NCBI RefSeq assembly: GCF_028737195.1
Contig: NZ_JAQZAJ010000004.1
Location: forward strand, 186,001 to 250,000
Direction of reading: 5' to 3'
DNA from: Pseudovibrio exalbescens
GTDB taxonomy: Bacteria; Pseudomonadota; Alphaproteobacteria; Rhizobiales; Stappiaceae
Length of the DNA stretch: 64,000 nt
Position 1 is the first letter of the stretch, and the number at the start of each line of letters is the position of its first letter. Shown piece after piece: positions 7,985 to 47,003 of the stretch. A program made the position numbers and the translations under genes. Under the pieces are notes generated by a model. It had not been told where the DNA came from. It did no database searches and saw nothing but the letters and a program-made list of their open reading frames with translations.

Positions 7985-8743
7985 TCAAACATCGGCGCCC
8001 AGACGGCGGCGCAACCTGTTTACTCGCTTCATAACCGAGCGTTTCATACGTTGCGGAAAGGTTTTCGCCCTGATGGGTTGAGCTGGATCATCTACATGCT
8101 GTCCATCACCAATATGATGGCATGCACCTGGGTCCAGAAAAGCAACCATGAGGCCATCACGTTTCATTGCGATGCTAATTCTTTCTTCCGTTACGTGTTT
8201 GGCATAGGGCCCGTACCTCTTCCAGAGGCTCAAGCGGGTCAGGCCAGGATTGAACGAAAAACTCAGCCATTCCGGGTGGATATCCAAAGGCATCAACGCA
8301 TAGCGAACCCCGTCTACTTCCTTGCGAATGCAGTTTTTCTGAAAACGCTCCTGCAGATCTGATAGCTTTCGAACACTTACGACACTTACGTTCGGCTCTG
8401 CTTCTAGCACTTTCATACAGGAAGGGATCGTGTTTTCGCCGTCGAACAACCAATCATCTTCACCGTGATAGATGAAGTCGGTCTCCACCATATCATATAG
8501 CTTGTCGATGGATTTCATTTGGCCCAACTGGGGGTGATTCAGGATCACTTCTACATCTGGATGAGTTTCTTCGAGCCAGTTTTTTACTTGGGTGCTATTG
8601 GCATCATCAATCACCAACATTCGTTTGAAGCTATCCCTATGGGAAGGCAGAAAGCTATTCAGTGTTCTTTGCAAAAGCTCCGTCCGCCCGCAACTTGTAA
8701 TGCAAAGAGTTACGTCAGCGTCATTGCTGTTGATTTCCGTCAT
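7985..8743 (-). CDS. GT2-like glycosyltransferase
   Basis: About 252 residues from the ATG at 8743, which has AAAAGG at good spacing; an ATG at 8761 is also in frame. The opening VTLCITSCGRTELLQRTLNS, MLVIDD and the acidic HGEDDW segment fit the nucleotide-sugar binding GT-A fold of family 2 transferases. The C-terminus is very basic (RMKRSVMKRVNRLRRR), suggesting peripheral membrane attachment. It is divergent from the next glycosyltransferase and belongs to an AT-richer island of surface-glycan genes. Donor and acceptor are unknown. Confidence 0.8.
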   Translation of the reverse strand: MTEINSNDADVTLCITSCGRTELLQRTLNSFLPSHRDSFKRMLVIDDANSTQVKNWLEETHPDVEVILNHPQLGQMKSIDKLYDMVETDFIYHGEDDWLFDGENTIPSCMKVLEAEPNVSVVSVRKLSDLQERFQKNCIRKEVDGVRYALMPLDIHPEWLSFSFNPGLTRLSLWKRYGPYAKHVTEERISIAMKRDGLMVAFLDPGACHHIGDGQHVDDPAQPIRAKTFPQRMKRSVMKRVNRLRRRLGADV

Positions 8744-8855
8744 AATCCGTGCCTTTTCCATAAAAAAGCTTCTCAGTCCTGGGAGGCTCTTGATCTGGTC
8801 AAATTTTGCCGCGATATGTACCCGCTAATGATCTCTAGAAAAAGAGCTTAGTGCC

Positions 8856-9626
8856 ATGTCAGGGAAACCTGCACCATTATCTGTGCTAATAAGAAGTCTC
8901 AATGAAGGCGATCGCATAGCGAGAACGCTGAAAAGCGTGCAGGGGCTGGGGCAAGAAATCATCGTCGTGGATTCTGGCTCGACCGACGATACGGTAGAGA
9001 TCGCTGAGTCGTTTGGGGCTAAGGTAATACATAACCCTTGGGGCGGTTTCGGTCCGCAAAGAAGTTTTGGCGAAAAACAATGCGCATTTGACTGGGTGTT
9101 TTACATCGACGCAGATGAAGTCGTGACGCCAGAGCTGAAGGACGAGATACTGCAGCTCTTCAACAACGATGAGCCTACAGAAGTCTGTTTCCTCATTCGA
9201 AATACCATGGTGCTTCCTGGAGACGAAAAACCCCGCCTGTTTGCTGACTACCGCAAGGTCCCGCGTCTTTACAATCTAAAGCACGCGCGCATCAAGCTAG
9301 ATCCTTCCTATGATCGTATGCAGGTCGATGATGGCTATCGCGTGGGTATATTGAGCGCTCGGCAGTACCACTACTCCTTTCGCAACTGGGGACATACGAT
9401 TGCAAAATTGAATTACACCTCAGATCTCGCAGCACAGACGCAGGAAAAGAAACCCTTGTGGCAGCTGAGATTGAGGTTGATCACTGAATTTCCAGTTGAG
9501 ATGTTCAAGTATCTTTTTGTGCGGCGTTTCATATTTGCAGGTTGGAAGGGCTTTGCCTTTGCCGCAACGCAATCGTTTTCCCGGTTCATGCGCATTCTTA
9601 AAATGCTTGAAAGCCGCATGCATTAG
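8856..9626 (+). CDS. Family 2 glycosyltransferase, WaaE/KdtX-like
   Basis: A 256-residue GT-A protein with SLNEGDRI, VVDSGSTDDT and the metal-binding YIDADE motif, the pattern of lipopolysaccharide core beta-glucosyltransferases of the WaaE (LgtF) type. These add a sugar from a nucleotide donor to the inner core at the cytoplasmic face of the inner membrane. First plus-strand gene of the glycan island. The family call is strong; the exact linkage is an inference from family resemblance. Confidence 0.88.
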   Translation: MSGKPAPLSVLIRSLNEGDRIARTLKSVQGLGQEIIVVDSGSTDDTVEIAESFGAKVIHNPWGGFGPQRSFGEKQCAFDWVFYIDADEVVTPELKDEILQLFNNDEPTEVCFLIRNTMVLPGDEKPRLFADYRKVPRLYNLKHARIKLDPSYDRMQVDDGYRVGILSARQYHYSFRNWGHTIAKLNYTSDLAAQTQEKKPLWQLRLRLITEFPVEMFKYLFVRRFIFAGWKGFAFAATQSFSRFMRILKMLESRMH

Positions 9627-9649
9627 TTTCCTGAGGGGCGGAATTGTAA

Positions 9650-10606
9650 TTGGTGACTAAGCAAAATTTAGTTTTGTGCGTGTGTACACGCGGCAGGTCG
9701 GAAATGCTGTTGGCCTGTATGATAGCAATTGGGCGCCTAAAAAGCGCGCCAAGTTTGAAACTGTCTGTTCTCGTCTGCAACAACAATGCTGAGCCTCTGG
9801 AAAAAGGGTACGTTTCGGCGCTTGAAGAAGCCGTCGGAGTTCAGTTTTTTTTGGTCAATGAACCTGAGCCGGGCATTCCATTCGCCCGCAATACCGCCAT
9901 TGAGGCTGCCGTTGCATTAAAACCCGAGTGGATTGGCTTCATTGATGATGATGAGCAAGTTGATGAGAACTGGCTCTTAGAGATCGAGCGGGCAATGAAG
10001 ACTTGGCCTGCTGATGTTTTCCACGGCTGGACTCAATCAACTCCGGAGCCCGGGGCAAATCTGGATTGGTACTTCAACAAACCGAGAAACAAACGTGTAG
10101 GCGGGACCGAGATGTCGTCCGCTGGCACTGACAATGTTGTTATAAAAGCTCAACTGGTTGATGGCACTAAAGAAAAGTATCGTTTTAATCAAACCATGAG
10201 GTTCAGCGGTGGCACTGATTTAGAGCTGTTTTACCGTGTAACCGATGCTGGTTATCGCATTGTTTGGGTGCCTGATGCTATAACCAAAGAAACAATACCT
10301 GCCGAGCGCCTTACGTTAAGATATCAGATCAAACGCGCAAAGGCGGTAGCCGCTGTGCATGGGTATATCTCGAGATCTCGAAAAGGCATGGCTGTCGCTG
10401 TCATCCAGATACTGCCAAAAGCGGCTGGGCGTTTGGTTCAGGCTTTTGGCCTGTTATTTGTTGCTTTGGGCGCTTGGGCGGTTCAAAACAAAGGCTGGCG
10501 CAAGGTCCTTCTGAAAGCATCCAAAAAGTTGGCTTATGTGGTAGGTACGATTGCTGGATTGGCACAATCCCTGCCCTCAGTCTATCAAAAAATCCATGGT
10601 CGCTGA
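9650..10606 (+). CDS. Family 2 glycosyltransferase
   Basis: A 318-residue transferase. N-terminal VCTRGR and VCNNNAEP mark the nucleotide-sugar site, GFIDDDEQVDENWL is the DxD-like metal site, and a hydrophobic segment near residue 270 may anchor it in the membrane. No ATG fits: translation probably starts at TTG 9650 or GTG 9653 behind GAGGGGCGG. It is followed almost directly by a polysaccharide pyruvyltransferase gene. Probably acts on a lipid-linked or core glycan. Confidence 0.85.
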   Translation: MVTKQNLVLCVCTRGRSEMLLACMIAIGRLKSAPSLKLSVLVCNNNAEPLEKGYVSALEEAVGVQFFLVNEPEPGIPFARNTAIEAAVALKPEWIGFIDDDEQVDENWLLEIERAMKTWPADVFHGWTQSTPEPGANLDWYFNKPRNKRVGGTEMSSAGTDNVVIKAQLVDGTKEKYRFNQTMRFSGGTDLELFYRVTDAGYRIVWVPDAITKETIPAERLTLRYQIKRAKAVAAVHGYISRSRKGMAVAVIQILPKAAGRLVQAFGLLFVALGAWAVQNKGWRKVLLKASKKLAYVVGTIAGLAQSLPSVYQKIHGR

Positions 10607-10607
10607 A

Positions 10608-11564
10608 ATGAGTATTAAGAAAAAACTCGATGCCGCTCGAATAAAGCTTGGGTTAAGAAAAGATAAAGAGCGGGATTGGGAGTATACTAACCCGCCTCTA
10701 GTCAAGTATTCTGGTACTGGTAAGCCGAAGTTGCGTATATTGGGTAGTCATGACGGCTACCATTGCGGTTGTACTGCTGTCATCGAAAGTTTACGCAAGG
10801 CTGCAATTCAGAATGGTTGGCAAGTTGCAGTCTATGGTGAGCCTTTCCATGCGTTAGCGGTAAATGGTGAAGGAGCAATGCATGATAATGGCCCAAATTT
10901 CCATAAAAAAATGAGAGCCCTGAAAGCAGCTGTGGAGTTCGGTGCGCCCGCATTTCTCGTAAACACTGTTTGGGCAAATAATACCAGCAACTATGACGGT
11001 ATATTGCGAAAACTAGATCGTATCATTACACGCGATGTACTCAGCCAACATGAGTTGCGAGCTAGCCATGATGTACTAGCAGACTTTGTTATTGATGCGT
11101 CATTTTTCTTTGGAGACACTGTACATCCGAAGCGAAACCAAAACAGGCATGGAGTAGCAGTAACAGACTATTACAGCAAGGAAATGGGCAAGTTCGTTAA
11201 ATTTGTGAACTCTTTTGAGAACTACGAATACCTAGATTTGGCAGCGGGGACATGGCAGGAAACTATTGACTTCTTGTCTTCTAAGAGAGTTCTCATAACC
11301 GGGCGACATCACGCGGTTTATGCAGCTTGCAAAGCAAGAACTCCGTTCGTAGCACTTGAAGGAAATACACATAAAATTAGAGGCTTAATTGAAAGTTCGG
11401 GCCTCGAAATACCTGTGGCTAGCTCGCTGTCCGAGGCCGAAGAGCTGTTCCCAGTTATAGATAAGTATGAGCGCGCATTTTCTGACCTGTTTGATTGGAT
11501 GGCGGAGCAAGATGGTAGACGAGTCATACCGAGCGTTCGGAGCGCCGCTGATAGATGGACTTAA
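10608..11564 (+). CDS. Polysaccharide pyruvyltransferase family protein (copy 1)
   Basis: About 318 residues starting at ATG 10608, one base after the preceding stop codon. Signatures of the polysaccharide pyruvyltransferase family are the ILGSHDGYHCG glycine-rich start, VNGEGAMHD, and TGRHHAVYAACKA followed by ALEGNTHK. Family members place pyruvate ketals on exopolysaccharide sugars, though many homologues are untested. It overlaps the sialyltransferase-like gene by 10 bases, suggesting translational coupling. A second copy lies at 12172-13149. Confidence 0.85.
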   Translation: MSIKKKLDAARIKLGLRKDKERDWEYTNPPLVKYSGTGKPKLRILGSHDGYHCGCTAVIESLRKAAIQNGWQVAVYGEPFHALAVNGEGAMHDNGPNFHKKMRALKAAVEFGAPAFLVNTVWANNTSNYDGILRKLDRIITRDVLSQHELRASHDVLADFVIDASFFFGDTVHPKRNQNRHGVAVTDYYSKEMGKFVKFVNSFENYEYLDLAAGTWQETIDFLSSKRVLITGRHHAVYAACKARTPFVALEGNTHKIRGLIESSGLEIPVASSLSEAEELFPVIDKYERAFSDLFDWMAEQDGRRVIPSVRSAADRWT

Positions 11565-12175
11565 TAAAGATCGAGCAAGAAGTGCGAGGAAATCGTGTCG
11601 CAATAGTTGGTAATGCGCAGTCCTTGCTTAGAACTTCATTTGGGCGAGACATTGACGCTCATGACATTGTTGTAAGATTGAATCGGGGCGTCGTATCTCC
11701 TTCTGCTCGATCTCATGGCAAGAAAACCGACATTTGGTGTTTTAGTGTACTAGATCAAATGACACCGGTACTAAAGAGAGCCAACTACCGCTACCGTATT
11801 GGAATGTCCCCAAAGCAAGTAAATTTACCGGATAATGAAGAAATTGTTTATCCTAGTGAGTATTGGTCGAGACTATCTGCATTGATCGGCGCTAGGCCTT
11901 CAGTAGGATGCATGGCTTTGGATTTAATCAGTCGATTCCAACCGTACTCTGTCACCTTGTACGGTTTCGACTTTAAAGAAACCAAAAGCTATTACGAGAA
12001 GCACCATAACTTTGGCCAACATGACTTTGCCGCTGAAAGATTGTTCGCAAAAACTTTAGTTTCTAAAAATGGTTGGGAAATTATTGCGGCAGATGCGGGG
12101 CATAGGTCTCCATTAACGGTACTGGCTAGTCTCACTGGTGCATTGAAAGGCTTTGGAAAGGGAATAATGAAGTGA
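11555..12175 (+). CDS. Sialyltransferase-like protein, glycosyltransferase family 29 (copy 1)
   Basis: A 206-residue protein with the sialylmotif layout of GT29: a motif L-like region (VAIVGNAQSLL ... HDIVVRLNRG, residues about 14-46), a motif S-like region (SVGCMALDLI ... VTLYGFDF, about 113-137) and a late HHNFGQHD stretch resembling motifs III/VS. GT29 enzymes use CMP-sialic acid or related CMP-nonulosonates. No CMP-sugar synthetase gene is visible in the window, so the donor must come from elsewhere or differ. The protein is much shorter than animal GT29 enzymes and has no membrane anchor, as expected for a bacterial cytosolic form. Confidence 0.75.
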   Translation: MDLIKIEQEVRGNRVAIVGNAQSLLRTSFGRDIDAHDIVVRLNRGVVSPSARSHGKKTDIWCFSVLDQMTPVLKRANYRYRIGMSPKQVNLPDNEEIVYPSEYWSRLSALIGARPSVGCMALDLISRFQPYSVTLYGFDFKETKSYYEKHHNFGQHDFAAERLFAKTLVSKNGWEIIAADAGHRSPLTVLASLTGALKGFGKGIMK

Positions 12176-13149
12176 GAATTGCATTATTTAATGACACCTC
12201 GCCCACTTTGCATCACGGTTGCAACTTAGTTATGACAAATCTAACGAATTTACTGGCCAAGCACGCTTCAGAGCCCTGCCTTTTCTGGCCAGTGGCAAGC
12301 GACTGGTCACCCTTTGAAGCAAGGTTACGATCAATGTCGTTAGATGCGATAGTCGTCAACGGTGAGGGTTCGATTCATACAGTAGATTCGCGGCCCCGAG
12401 CTAGGCAACTACTGGGGTTGTCCAGATTTGCAAAGGAGTTAGGAGTTCCCTCGTTTCTGGTCAATAGTTCATTATTTAATCTCGATGACCAAGCCTTTGA
12501 GGCTTTAAATTCATTCTCAAAAATTTTGGTTAGAGAAAGTAGAAGTAAAGAATACTTGGAAAAAAACGGTATCAATTGTGAAATCGCGCCTGATCTATCG
12601 ATGGTTGATTTGAGTTTCCGGCCAGAAGCATGCGGTGAAAGAACCACGAAGTTGGCGACCGACAGTGTATTTCCGTCATATTCCCGTGAGATCAAGGCCT
12701 TCGCCGACAAACACTCATTCGTCTTTGAGAGTATGCAGAGGAAACCAACCTGGTTGGAAAAAAGAAGGAAAAAAATCAAAAAGTCGCTAGGTGTTTTTCC
12801 GGCTACGCGATTGTATAAGCCGACATCGGACTTTCACAGTTTCTTGAAACGCATAGGTGAGGCACAACTTGTTGTAACCGGGCGGTTTCATACAGTTACC
12901 TTGTGTCTTCTTACTTCTACACCTTTTATTGCTGTTGAATCCAATACTCCGAAGATTTCGGCATTGGTTGGTGATTGCTTGGGAGATGATGAGCGTGTTG
13001 TCTCGCTTGAGAGGTTGAAGAACCTGTCGGCTGGTGATCTAGAACGGCTAAGTCGATTTTCAGAGGCTGAACATGCTAGTATTAACGAGTTTCTTTACGC
13101 AGGGACAAACTCAGCAAATAGCTTTTTTTCCCGAATGTTCGGGTTTTAG
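12172..13149 (+). CDS. Polysaccharide pyruvyltransferase family protein (copy 2)
   Basis: A 325-residue protein. It begins with GTG at 12172, overlapping the TGA of the upstream gene, with AAGGGA upstream as ribosome binding site. The motifs VVNGEGSIHT and VTGRFHTVTLCL match the first copy and the polysaccharide pyruvyltransferase family. It differs widely from copy 1 outside the motifs, so the two probably modify different sugars or act in different steps. Base composition is visibly AT-richer than the flanking chromosome. Confidence 0.85.
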   Translation: MRIALFNDTSPTLHHGCNLVMTNLTNLLAKHASEPCLFWPVASDWSPFEARLRSMSLDAIVVNGEGSIHTVDSRPRARQLLGLSRFAKELGVPSFLVNSSLFNLDDQAFEALNSFSKILVRESRSKEYLEKNGINCEIAPDLSMVDLSFRPEACGERTTKLATDSVFPSYSREIKAFADKHSFVFESMQRKPTWLEKRRKKIKKSLGVFPATRLYKPTSDFHSFLKRIGEAQLVVTGRFHTVTLCLLTSTPFIAVESNTPKISALVGDCLGDDERVVSLERLKNLSAGDLERLSRFSEAEHASINEFLYAGTNSANSFFSRMFGF

Positions 13150-13168
13150 TTTGGGCGGTTAGACTATT

Positions 13169-13921
13169 TTGGGTAAGACTAGATTACTAAAGATGGCAGT
13201 AAATCGCTTTCGATTTATGGCATCCAATATTGGCGGTCGCCACGTTATGCAAGGGCGTGATTTCACTTCGAAGAGAATTGCTGTGGTAGGACCTGCAGCG
13301 CCTCTCGAGGGTACCCATGTTCAGTTAGATGCTAGCCAATTTGACTACTTGATAGTTATGAATCGCCTTCTTCATTCCAAGCCGGAAAACGTTTTTGGAG
13401 CTCCAGCGATTGGCAAAGTCTTGTTCCACAATTTGGAGGAAACGGGAGAGCGAAGTGCAGGAAATCTTTCCAAGAATGCTTTGTTCGAAGAACACGTGAA
13501 GTATGTCGTTTTTCCACACGCTACTTATTTAGGTGTTGGAGGGAAGTTTTATCGAGCTTCTAATACCTTGAGTAAGTTCGGTGTTGAACTAAAGGTACTG
13601 CCATTTTCTTTTTATAATGAACTAGTGGAAGATCTTGGAGGGTACGCTCCAACAACAGGTTTAGCTGCTATAGCCTATTTGTTACGCTGTCCTGTACATA
13701 GTGTGAGCATTTCCGGCTTTACTTTTTTCCAAACTGGCTATCAAAAAGAGTACAATAATAGCTTAGAGGCCAATACGCAGCCTTGGGTGTGGGCTAAACA
13801 TACTGGACTTCACGACCCTGATCGTGAAGTAGAGGTGGCTCGCCGTAGAGTCAATGAAGCTAGAAAGGCAGGAAAGCAGGTCTGTCTGGACGCGTCGCTA
13901 CAAACAATTTTAACCCGTTAG
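13169..13921 (+). CDS. GT29-like glycosyltransferase (copy 2)
   Basis: Up to 250 residues. The start is unclear: TTG at 13169 or ATG at 13193. The middle has the same order of motifs as the upstream GT29 gene: KRIAVVGPAAPLEG with LIVMNR (motif L-like), PTTGLAAIAYLL with VSISGFTFF (motif S-like) and a later HDPDREVE stretch. The match to sialyltransferases is weaker than in copy 1, so donor specificity could differ. The last four bases overlap the stop of the convergent serine hydrolase gene, marking the right end of the AT-rich island. Confidence 0.65.
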   Translation: MGKTRLLKMAVNRFRFMASNIGGRHVMQGRDFTSKRIAVVGPAAPLEGTHVQLDASQFDYLIVMNRLLHSKPENVFGAPAIGKVLFHNLEETGERSAGNLSKNALFEEHVKYVVFPHATYLGVGGKFYRASNTLSKFGVELKVLPFSFYNELVEDLGGYAPTTGLAAIAYLLRCPVHSVSISGFTFFQTGYQKEYNNSLEANTQPWVWAKHTGLHDPDREVEVARRRVNEARKAGKQVCLDASLQTILTR

Positions 13922-15132
13922 GCTTTTTTAAAACCCTCCAACAAACTCGCCATCAGGGCTAGGGCCTTGGGTTCGTTGATGGGGGCCGATGGGTCATTCC
14001 AGGTCGCGGAGAGGCGGTATTTTGTACCGCCTTTTGTTTCCAATTGATAGGTGAAGTTCAGCACGCCAATTTCGCTGCCGCCTTTATAGGCCACATGGTG
14101 CCAGTCGGCCTTTTCCGCCGCGCCAAGGAAGATTTTCATGGCGGGGTCATCGCCCACTTTCTCGATGATCTCGCAGAGTTCTTCTGCACTTGCATACCAC
14201 TGCAGGCCTTCTTTGTAGGGAAGGGCGGCAGCATCCGGTCCCGGCAGTGGGCGGTCCGCCAGCTCGGCCAAAATGGCAAGGCGCTCGTCAGTGCTGGCAG
14301 CGGCATAGCGGTCCGCAAGGGCTGGGTCGGCTTTGAGCTGAAAGAACTGGCGTGTGGTCAGAAAAGGCGTCCGTCCGTCTGCGCCGTCCAGAGTGCGTGC
14401 TCCCACCAGGTTGATGATGAGATCTGCCGCAGAATTGTCTGAATTGGCAATCATTTGCTGGGTGACCGCTTTCACGCTCTGCAGGCCGCCAATGTTCTTT
14501 CCACTGACAAGGCCGCCGGGCAGGGAGGCGAACTCCTCTGACAAGCGCAGCTTTTGTGTTGCCTTCAGGTTGCCAGCCTTCAACTTGGCGCGCAGTGCCT
14601 CCAGCACCCACATCTTGAAGGAGGAGCCAATGGCGAGGCGCACCTGCGCGTTGTACTGAGCTTCTACGTGGCCATCCTTGATCAGCAGGTGGCTATGGCG
14701 AGGTGCAAGCTCACGCATCGCCTGTAGAATATCCTGAATGTTGGTCAATCTGCTGCGCGGTGACTTGATGAAAAAGCCAGAGGCGTGGCCTGCGCGCGCG
14801 CGGTCCAAAAGCACAGGCAAAACAAAGTCCTGCGTGGTCACCAGATAGCCAGGCCCCTTGTGGTCGCGGGCGACCTCCACCGCAGGGCCATAGACGCTGC
14901 GCGCCTGCTGCAGCGACGCCTTAAGGGCATCGGGCGCGACAACCTGAAGAAAGCCAGAGGAAAACATGGATAAGTCCTCAGGCTCTGCCGCCCAGATGCG
15001 GAAGATCAAGTCTTCCGGCGTCATGGCGCGTAAGGCCATGGCCTCTGGCGTAAGGCGTTTTGCCGGAGACAGCTTCTGCAGGCCAGCCTGTATGTTCTTG
15101 AGGCCTTGGACCATTTCCTGAAGAAGACGCAT
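13918..15132 (-). CDS. Serine hydrolase, class A beta-lactamase fold
   Basis: A 404-residue protein. The C-terminal domain carries SxxK (Ser170-Lys173), SDN (231-233) and KGG (350-352) in place of the usual KTG triad, as in penicillin-recognising serine hydrolases. The N-terminal 150 residues form a domain without clear homology. There is no signal peptide or lipobox, so the protein appears cytosolic, which is unusual for a beta-lactamase and suggests an esterase or peptidase role. Single gene. Confidence 0.8.
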   Translation of the reverse strand: MRLLQEMVQGLKNIQAGLQKLSPAKRLTPEAMALRAMTPEDLIFRIWAAEPEDLSMFSSGFLQVVAPDALKASLQQARSVYGPAVEVARDHKGPGYLVTTQDFVLPVLLDRARAGHASGFFIKSPRSRLTNIQDILQAMRELAPRHSHLLIKDGHVEAQYNAQVRLAIGSSFKMWVLEALRAKLKAGNLKATQKLRLSEEFASLPGGLVSGKNIGGLQSVKAVTQQMIANSDNSAADLIINLVGARTLDGADGRTPFLTTRQFFQLKADPALADRYAAASTDERLAILAELADRPLPGPDAAALPYKEGLQWYASAEELCEIIEKVGDDPAMKIFLGAAEKADWHHVAYKGGSEIGVLNFTYQLETKGGTKYRLSATWNDPSAPINEPKALALMASLLEGFKKA

Positions 15133-15242
15133 ACTGAGGGAGCTCCTGTTCCGGCGCTTGGGTGAAACACGTTCACCCGTTTAGCGCGGTTTCAGGGGGC
15201 AATCCAGTTTGGAATTCAACTGAGAAACAGCTTGTTCACGGC

Positions 15243-45420: not shown

Positions 45421-46101
45421 TTACTTGGCTGGAACTGGGTCGAGCTTGGGGCCGTGCTCAGCGCGTTCTGGGGCTTTGTGAACCATGGTGTAGGCGTAAT
45501 CTACGCCCATGCCGTAGGCGCCGGAGTGTTCCTGAACAAGGCCGATGACCTGATCATAGGTGTCCTTGCGGGCCCAGTCGCGCTGCAGCTCAAGCAGAAC
45601 CTGCTGCCATGTGACTGGAATGACACCCGCCTGCACCATGCGCTCCATGGCGTAGTCGTGTGCTTCCTTGGTGGTGCCACCGGAAGCGTCTGCGACCATG
45701 TAGATCTCGTAGCCGCCTTCGCGGATCGCATCGAGAGAGAACATCAGGTTGCAGACCTCGGTCCACAAACCGGAAACAATCACCTTCTTGCGGCCGTTCT
45801 TGGCCAGCGCGTCGCGCACCTTCTGGTCATCCCAAGAGTTCATGGAGGTCCGCTCCAGAAGCGGCGCATCAGGGAACACGGAGAGCAGCTCTGGATAGGT
45901 GTGGCCAGAGAAGCTTTCGGTCTCAACCGTGGTGATGGTCGCTGGCAGGTCGAAAATCTTCGCGGCCTTGGCGAGACCAACTGTGTTGTTCTTCAGGGTC
46001 TGGCGGTCGATGGACTGAACGCCGAATGCCATCTGTGGCTGGTGATCGATGAAAATGATCTGGGAATTTTCAGGGGTCAGCAGTTCCAGTTTATTGGACA
46101 T
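45421..46101 (-). CDS. Isochorismatase-fold cysteine hydrolase, YcaC-like
   Basis: A 226-residue protein of the isochorismatase-like superfamily. The catalytic triad is seen in Asp19 (IIFIDH), a Lys near 105 and Cys117 (GLWTEVCN). YcaC and relatives hydrolyse amides or related compounds. First gene of a same-strand cluster that includes two amidohydrolases, XapX, GNAT and an MFS exporter; amide or ester degradation is a reasonable guess for the shared pathway. Confidence 0.87.
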   Translation of the reverse strand: MSNKLELLTPENSQIIFIDHQPQMAFGVQSIDRQTLKNNTVGLAKAAKIFDLPATITTVETESFSGHTYPELLSVFPDAPLLERTSMNSWDDQKVRDALAKNGRKKVIVSGLWTEVCNLMFSLDAIREGGYEIYMVADASGGTTKEAHDYAMERMVQAGVIPVTWQQVLLELQRDWARKDTYDQVIGLVQEHSGAYGMGVDYAYTMVHKAPERAEHGPKLDPVPAK

Positions 46102-47003
46102 TTCCGGTCTCCTTGTGTGCCGCTTTCAGGCGGTGGATCTAAGCATGTGTGTCTGTGGCAGAGCCCTGTTTGGTTGACGATCCAGGCTGGATTGAAGCGC
46201 CCGGTGGTCAGTCGTTCCCTGCGTGATGACCCTAATATGCGCGGATTTGGCGCTAAGACAATCAGGCAAAGAATGGCCACACTGTTCACTTTTAATGAAC
46301 GATAAGGGGATGCAAATGGGAATGTACACAATGCAGAGATCGTAGCTTTGCGTAGCTGACGTCGGGTCTCTGGCGATTGCATAGTAGTTTTCATCTGTTG
46401 GCTCGCTGAGAGCCATGATAGCCAAGTCATTGTTGACGATGGGGCAAGTATTTGTAGGGTGTGCGTTCCTCACCTTCCGTGCTCGGGAGGCGGCTTACCT
46501 ATGCATATGCTGGAAGCGATCCTTCAGAAAAATAAAGGGAATTTCGTTGCTTCCATGCGCGGTTTGAATTTCTCATTCTGAATGCGCGCACCAGATGCAC
46601 CTCCTTCAGAAGGCTATCCTCAGGTGGCGGAACCTCATAAAAATGGGTAGAGAATCGCGCAAGTGACCCAGCGTTATCCGGTGCGGCAGGCACTTTTTTT
46701 GGAATTTTTTTTGCTTGACGTTTTCTTGCAGAAACAAGTGCTTGCGCCGTAAAACGTAAAGAAACATTCGAGAAAATCCAATGTAATACATGATCATGCG
46801 CATCATTCCGTGAGATGATAATAAAATCGATTAAATTTATAGTTATATACTTGAAAGATGCTTCGAACTATTTGAATTATGGGGCTGTTTTGAATAGGTT
46901 TTTATTTCTCTCAAATCCCATAATGTATCACTGCTGTTTTACAAAATTACTTGTTTCGAGTATAAGGCACTTGTTTTTCATTGGACACGAAAGAGGTTAT
47001 TAC
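46102..47003. other. AT-rich 900-bp intergenic region
   Basis: Holds the promoter of the hydrolase cluster (left) and of the binding-protein gene (right). Composition is clearly AT-rich, with T-runs near 46693-46715. Short open frames are present but have neither start signals nor coding character. A fading remnant of a transferred element is possible, with no direct evidence. Confidence 0.5.

Follow-up and report, generated by a model that had tools for sequence, protein, structure and literature searches.

What would a bacterium without a sialic acid pathway do with two genes for sialyltransferase-like enzymes, each preceded by a gene for a pyruvyltransferase? The question is raised by a 64,000-nucleotide stretch of the Pseudovibrio exalbescens genome (contig NZ_JAQZAJ010000004.1, positions 186,001 to 250,000; the whole stretch is hereafter called the window), in which two genes for polysaccharide pyruvyl transferases (PPT1 and PPT2) alternate with two genes for glycosyltransferases of family GT29 (ST1 and ST2):

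10608 to 11564, plus strand: PPT1, polysaccharide pyruvyl transferase (ATG start; PF04230, E = 2.9e-7)
11555 to 12175, plus strand: ST1, GT29 glycosyltransferase of 206 amino acids (ATG start; PF00777, E = 1.1e-14)
12172 to 13149, plus strand: PPT2, polysaccharide pyruvyl transferase (GTG start; PF04230, E = 2e-19)
13169 to 13921, plus strand: ST2, divergent GT29 (TTG start, or ATG at 13193; assigned by profile-profile comparison and fold)

PPT1 and ST1 overlap by 10 bases, ST1 and PPT2 by 4 bases, and a gap of 19 bases separates PPT2 from ST2. This is the gene order and these are the two overlaps given in a preliminary description of the window, made from its letters alone. In the reading that we favour, and that we consider somewhat probable as a whole, the four genes belong to a horizontally acquired island for finishing an outer glycan, in which ST1 would transfer an alpha-linked residue of 3-deoxy-D-manno-oct-2-ulosonic acid (Kdo) and PPT2 would then add a pyruvate ketal.

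Recurrence of the PPT-GT29 association

All pairing counts are based on 80 named GT29 loci obtained in a profile scan (cited by L numbers where needed). They span Alpha-, Beta- and Gammaproteobacteria, Planctomycetota, Verrucomicrobiota, Spirochaetota, Actinomycetota, Bacillota and other groups. A PPT gene lies within about 8 kb in 15 of them, being adjacent or fused to the GT29 gene in 12 and within 4 kb in the other three. PPT-adjacent GT29 genes were found in Hydrogenovibrio, Azoarcus, Parazoarcus, Cohaesibacter, Ensifer and Rhodovulum, and in the metagenome-assembled genomes (MAGs) RGIG4789 and those of Heliobacteriaceae, Spirochaetaceae (with a 194-base gap) and Planctomycetota. Rhizobium setariae and a Verrucomicrobiaceae MAG have both domains in a single open reading frame (ORF), GT29 first and PPT second (L114, 734 amino acids; L100, 723 amino acids).

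Mobile islands of this kind gather unrelated glycosyltransferases, and the composition of the present one is sharply unlike that of its flanks, as would be expected if common glycan genes had come together by chance in an AT-rich island. We regard such a chance gathering as very improbable. Of 385 genomes drawn evenly from the class, 79 had a PPT and 2 a GT29 (PF00777), yet PPT genes are adjacent or fused at 12 of the 80 GT29 loci, which argues that the pairing is not fortuitous. Were a PPT gene free to occupy any gene slot within 8 kb, adjacency in 12 of 15 cases would have P ~1e-8 under a simple slot model that ignores the relatedness of the loci, and chance adjacency was rejected on this basis. 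The paired order, whose absence from related genomes the preliminary description would have taken as a sign of chance placement, is thus found repeatedly elsewhere, and gene arrangement indicates that the functional link between PPT and GT29 is real.

Several loci show more elaborate arrangements. The planctomycete locus L117 has the order PPT-GT29-PPT, matching PPT1-ST1-PPT2 of the island, and in Ensifer (L116) one GT29 gene stands beside two PPT genes. A longer row, made up of an Elm1-like gene, a PPT gene, an unknown gene and a GT29 gene, is found in Pseudovibrio sp. Ad37 and P. japonicus. In Hylemonella, a PPT gene, an ST2 homologue, a member of the unknown family of the Ad37 type and an ST1 homologue occur together beside an O-antigen-ligase-type gene. 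This family without a Pfam match, whose genes neighbour PPT and GT29 in both Pseudovibrio and Hylemonella (L027:4167-4859, L026:4947-5585, L048:7295-8173), possibly supplies a further enzyme of the module.

A scan of genome contigs with ST1 as single query gave no result, and neither did a scan of viral contigs with PPT2. On the record of an uncultured 462-kb phage (LR756500), a GT29 gene and a Capsule_synth-like gene lie close together (L178:4977-5597, 8080-9078).

The conserved unit

In the PPT tree, the bootstrap of which was not fully settled, PPT2 clusters (98/100) with the PPTs encoded directly downstream of GT29 in Hydrogenovibrio, Azoarcus and Parazoarcus, and PPT1 joins the PPT domains of the two GT29-PPT fusions (100/99). 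In the GT29 tree, ST1 falls with the enzymes of Ad37 and P. japonicus (99/95), and Jannaschia belongs to the same group; the clade of ST2 is a different one, shared with proteins of Paracoccus and Hylemonella (100/95). Because PPT2 is placed with PPTs directly downstream of GT29, the conserved and inherited unit on these trees is ST1-PPT2, with PPT1 and ST2 coming from other lineages of their families. The trees do not bear out the earlier suggestion of a two-step modification done twice by two like pairs, ST1 and ST2 being members of different subfamilies. A recent duplication of one PPT-GT29 pair was also rejected, since PPT1 and PPT2, like ST1 and ST2, lie in separate clades.

Predicted activities of the four enzymes

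PPT1 and PPT2, which are about 28% identical to each other, both exceed the PF04230 cut-off of 25.3 bits (31.1 and 71 bits, respectively) and are the sole PPTs in the whole 4.39-Mb genome. PPT1 shares 38-40% identity with the fused PPT domains of R. setariae and Verrucomicrobiaceae. The residues of the phosphoenolpyruvate (PEP) site, which in CsaB are R148, R306, H308 and K328 (PMC10435577), were mapped via the CsaB mutants described in that paper and an alignment with Pvg1p. Their equivalents are retained in both PPTs of the island; the set of PPT2 is complete (R121, R238, H240, K261) and invariant in the alignment that includes PPT1. Both proteins are predicted to be PEP-dependent ketal pyruvyltransferases. 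They share with CsaB, Pvg1p and WbbZ the family PF04230 and the Arg, Arg-x-His, Lys site, but GT29-linked PPTs differ from these in a signature, NGEGxxH and GRxH...N..K, which is present in nearly all of them and in few unlinked PPTs.

ST1 matches PF00777 with 54.9 bits, the cut-off being 23. With its predicted structure (pLDDT, the predicted local distance difference test, of 86.5) as Foldseek query, the first 29 matches in the PDB are all GT29 enzymes, human or other mammalian (E down to 9.7e-9), and GT42 CstII comes next in the list. The sialylmotifs L, S and VS are present (VGN, ID.HD.V.R.N, PS.G, GFDF, H156-x4-E161). The assignment of ST1 to GT29, for which profile and fold comparisons had been proposed as a check, is confirmed by a match above cut-off and a sialyltransferase-like fold. 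ST1 is a candidate alpha-Kdo transferase; its use of a CMP (cytidine monophosphate) donor is predicted from the genome, in which KdsB is present and NeuB absent. Searches of the genome for ST1-like and ST2-like genes found one gene each.

ST2 has no Pfam or NCBIfam match and does not reach the GT29 profile cut-off. In hhalign it matches the ST1 family with 99.2% probability (E = 2.8e-19), a hidden Markov model of that family matches it at 3.6e-14, and the best PDB matches of its lower-confidence model (pLDDT 76) are mammalian GT29 enzymes (Foldseek, top 2wnf, E = 2e-4). Its earlier identification as GT29-like stands as far as profile-profile comparison and fold are concerned, but not by a Pfam profile; on the former grounds ST2 is a divergent GT29 homologue. 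The VS motif is retained (H215-x4-E220). In motif L, GPA replaces GN[A/S] in the alignment, so that the motif-L Asn is missing. Since GPA and the VS His recur in the ST2 relatives of Hylemonella and Paracoccus and in those of the MAG locus L103, GPA is a trait of the ST2 subfamily. The last of these loci, in MAG RSA8 (L103:6358-8672), has three tandem GT29 genes of the ST2-like GPA type.

The missing Asn of ST2, together with a simple consensus scan that turned up no convincing promoter among these genes, would fit an island that is decayed or unexpressed, with some of its proteins, ST2 above all, inactive. This we consider improbable, as all seven ORFs of the island are intact and overlap tightly in places, GPA and the VS His are kept across the ST2 subfamily and the PEP residues are kept in both PPTs.

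The donor sugar

The preliminary description had found no gene for the synthesis of sialic acid or another CMP-nonulosonate in the window and had left the donor open. The first observation is borne out and extends to the whole genome, in which no NeuB was found; for that reason an endogenous nonulosonate, sialic acid included, was rejected as the donor. The sole strong CTP_transf_3 match in the genome is KdsB, which is above cut-off (NF003952, 203 bits), and two others are marginal. The nonulosonic acid synthesis or activation expected of a host with sialyltransferase function was thus not found, and the searches revealed no CMP-sugar route in this genome other than that to CMP-Kdo. The donor may accordingly be narrowed to CMP-Kdo as the likely one.

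Other genomes agree with Kdo as the likely donated sugar. The pair or the fusion also occurs in Azoarcus, Parazoarcus and R. setariae, where NeuB is likewise absent and KdsB is the one CTP_transf_3 match. The planctomycete locus L115 contains an overlapping run GT29-KdsB-KpsF, with KdsB and KpsF (arabinose-5-phosphate isomerase) above cut-off, and its GT29 forms a 100/99 clade with the PPT-paired GT29s of L116 (Ensifer) and L117 (Planctomycetota). KdsB is also encoded near GT29 in Halomonas urumqiensis and in an Akkermansia MAG, the latter with a second cytidylyltransferase. On Sinorhizobium and Ensifer plasmids, PPT2 relatives lie about 3 kb from a KpsF/GutQ gene. Outside bacteria, the plant GT29 enzyme RCKT1 was proposed to be the CMP-beta-Kdo transferase of rhamnogalacturonan II (RG-II), from a mutant whose RG-II is without Kdo (PMC11288761). 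Alpha-Kdo with a 7,8-pyruvate ketal occurs in Cobetia marina (PMC6801904).

The island GT29s might instead use an unrecognised CMP-nonulosonate or a sugar linked to cytidine or uridine diphosphate, in which case the product would be a pyruvylated glycan without terminal Kdo. NeuB is encoded in the GT29-bearing P. japonicus, Hydrogenovibrio and Cohaesibacter, locus L090 pairs GT29 with a PseF-like gene, and the altered motif L of ST2 points in the same direction. We think a different donor unlikely, given the absence of NeuB from the P. exalbescens genome, its one strong CTP_transf_3 match being KdsB, and the GT29-KdsB-KpsF operon of L115.

A putative pathway

If Kdo is indeed the sugar donated, the neighbouring family-2 glycosyltransferases (GT2) would make a lipid-linked surface glycan, onto which ST1, a small soluble inverting GT29, would transfer Kdo from CMP-Kdo; the product would be alpha-linked because GT29 enzymes are inverting and the donor is CMP-beta-Kdo. 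With PEP as its substrate, PPT2 would then form a pyruvate ketal, either on this Kdo or on the adjoining sugar, yielding a doubly acidic cap. PPT1 and ST2 would act equivalently on another residue or glycan. Besides the donated sugar, we infer the order of the two steps, the residue that is pyruvylated and a location in lipopolysaccharide (LPS) or capsule. As to the latter, O-antigen-ligase-type genes lie near the association in Hydrogenovibrio, Azoarcus and Hylemonella, which favours the outer regions of LPS; since KpsC/KpsS-type and ligase-type genes are present elsewhere in the P. exalbescens genome, both LPS and capsule are possible. Two tandem pairs of KpsC-like Capsule_synth domains in this genome (G000:C1:803116-806916 and C23:235749-237985), along with further members, suggest two Kdo-primed capsules.

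That both enzymes act successively on one acceptor is suggested by the direct gene overlaps and by the GT29-PPT fusions in distant phyla. These same features speak against another explanation, in which the two enzymes would modify different, neighbouring residues and share no more than the glycan, the PPT capping a hexose in the way WbbZ caps galactose and the GT29 placing its sugar at another site. Most characterised PPTs modify galactose, N-acetylmannosamine or glucose (PMC6801904, PMC10629545), and PPT and GT29 are separated by one gene in Pseudovibrio sp. Ad37 and P. japonicus. Action on different residues is a serious possibility, although on balance not the probable one.

Several observations weigh against the pathway with Kdo and pyruvate proposed above. 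The activities are predictions from sequence and structure analysis of these proteins. A strong NeuB match was found in 6 of the 15 genomes with the PPT-GT29 association and a weak one in 2 more, so Kdo need not be the universal donor, and a GT29 pair of a spirochaete adjoins a PseF-like CMP-nonulosonate synthetase gene. The plant GALT29A, also a GT29, has been reported as a galactosyltransferase, which suggests that GT29 donors can vary. Given GPA in place of GN[A/S], ST2 may use a different donor or be impaired. No LPS or capsule assembly genes were found within the island itself. Finally, four plasmid-borne PPT2 relatives, two of them with a KpsF gene, have no GT29 within 7 kb, which indicates that the PPT2 subfamily also works without GT29.

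On S. meliloti pSymB and an E. canadensis plasmid (L175:3167-8062, L176:2815-8059), the PPT2 relative lies downstream of genes for a KpsF/GutQ isomerase and an acyltransferase and is followed, in E. canadensis, by an ABC (ATP-binding cassette) transporter gene. On a Roseivivax plasmid, a PPT gene overlaps that of a 224-amino-acid protein without Pfam match (L177:7968-8642) with GPSL and VYGTDL motifs, which, judged by eye only, may be a GT42/MptE-like counterpart of the GT29 partner.

Structure and origin of the island

The island comprises seven intact genes (7985-13921), with a GC content of 43-49% and third-codon-position GC (GC3) of 0.38-0.55. The genes flanking it have 57-61% GC and GC3 of 0.67-0.71, in agreement with the AT-rich, foreign-looking segment noted in the preliminary description. 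It is bordered by a coenzyme A-transferase/RidA pair on one side and a beta-lactamase-fold hydrolase on the other, whose genes have 57-59% GC. Upstream of PPT1 are three glycosyltransferase genes:

7985 to 8761, minus strand: GT2a, family-2 glycosyltransferase at the left end of the island (PF00535, E = 5.6e-6; GC 48%)
8856 to 9626, plus strand: GT2b, family-2 glycosyltransferase (PF00535, E = 7.7e-23)
9650 to 10606, plus strand: GT2c, family-2 glycosyltransferase (PF00535, E = 7.9e-7)

Pseudovibrio sp. Ad37 has a GT2b homologue (36%) in its PPT-GT29 cluster, and the Ensifer locus L116 holds a GT2c homologue (14200-15198; phmmer 6.9e-28). Neither a tRNA gene nor a tandem repeat was found at the island boundaries. 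In a search for an empty site, congeners had homologues of the right-flank gene (about 44% identity) without the other tested flank genes adjoining, so that insertion was not demonstrable there. A second sharp GC dip (45%) occurs in the window at 46001-47000, outside the island.

Comparison with known systems

The island enzymes resemble GT29 members in CAZy, that is, animal sialyltransferases and plant RCKT1/MGP2, in fold (Foldseek top 6apj, 2wml, 5bo9), in motifs L, S and VS and in the catalytic His and Glu. They differ in being small (206-250 amino acids), with no evident transmembrane or stem region, in belonging to a genome without a sialic acid pathway and, for ST2, in the GPA of motif L. 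Bacterial GT29s, mostly alphaproteobacterial, were described by Petit et al. (2018; PMC5811610), who analysed 23 sequences; we found neither a PPT partner nor a donor given for them there, whereas ST1 is accompanied by a PPT and its donor is likely CMP-Kdo. WbbY-WbbZ of Klebsiella O1 is likewise a glycosyltransferase and PPT pair that caps an O-antigen and is encoded in a mobile locus, but WbbY is not a GT29 and the pyruvate is on galactose (PMC10629545). The beta-Kdo transferases KpsC/KpsS and WbbB (PF05159, GT99) use CMP-Kdo, the donor proposed here for GT29, and other Pseudovibrio even join PF05159 and GT29 domains in one protein (L034). These beta-Kdo transferases are, however, unrelated in sequence and retaining, giving beta-Kdo, whereas a GT29 would be inverting and give alpha-Kdo.

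Our literature search found no publication joining GT29 with pyruvyl transfer, which is no proof of novelty. What we describe is apparently a set of known enzyme families in a recurrent, sometimes fused and hitherto undescribed module. Bacterial GT29s have so far been listed without known donor or product; the PPT partner, the fusions and the GT29-KdsB-KpsF operon offer a testable answer, with CMP-Kdo as donor and a pyruvate ketal as product, and link these enzymes to the RG-II enzyme RCKT1 of plants. If that answer is right, it would bear on the origin of the sialyltransferase family and yield small soluble enzymes with which pyruvylated Kdo glycans could be made. Extending this, GT29-PPT could be a widespread module making pyruvylated alpha-Kdo caps and bacterial GT29s could be chiefly Kdo transferases, with Kdo a plausible ancestral donor and RCKT1 a retained form; we advance this generalisation tentatively and consider it rather doubtful.

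GT29 domains also occur in other fusions. In other Pseudovibrio, proteins of about 900 amino acids (L034:7382-10126; L084, L089) combine Capsule_synth (PF05159, KpsC/KpsS-type) with a C-terminal GT29, and the GT29 domain of an equally long Rhizobium protein (L083) falls in their clade. Methyltransferase-GT29 fusions of about 410 amino acids were seen in several Pseudovibrio, and a GT2-GT29 fusion of 540 amino acids in one member of the same family (L029:9594-10838, L031:9682-10917, L039:9137-10759).

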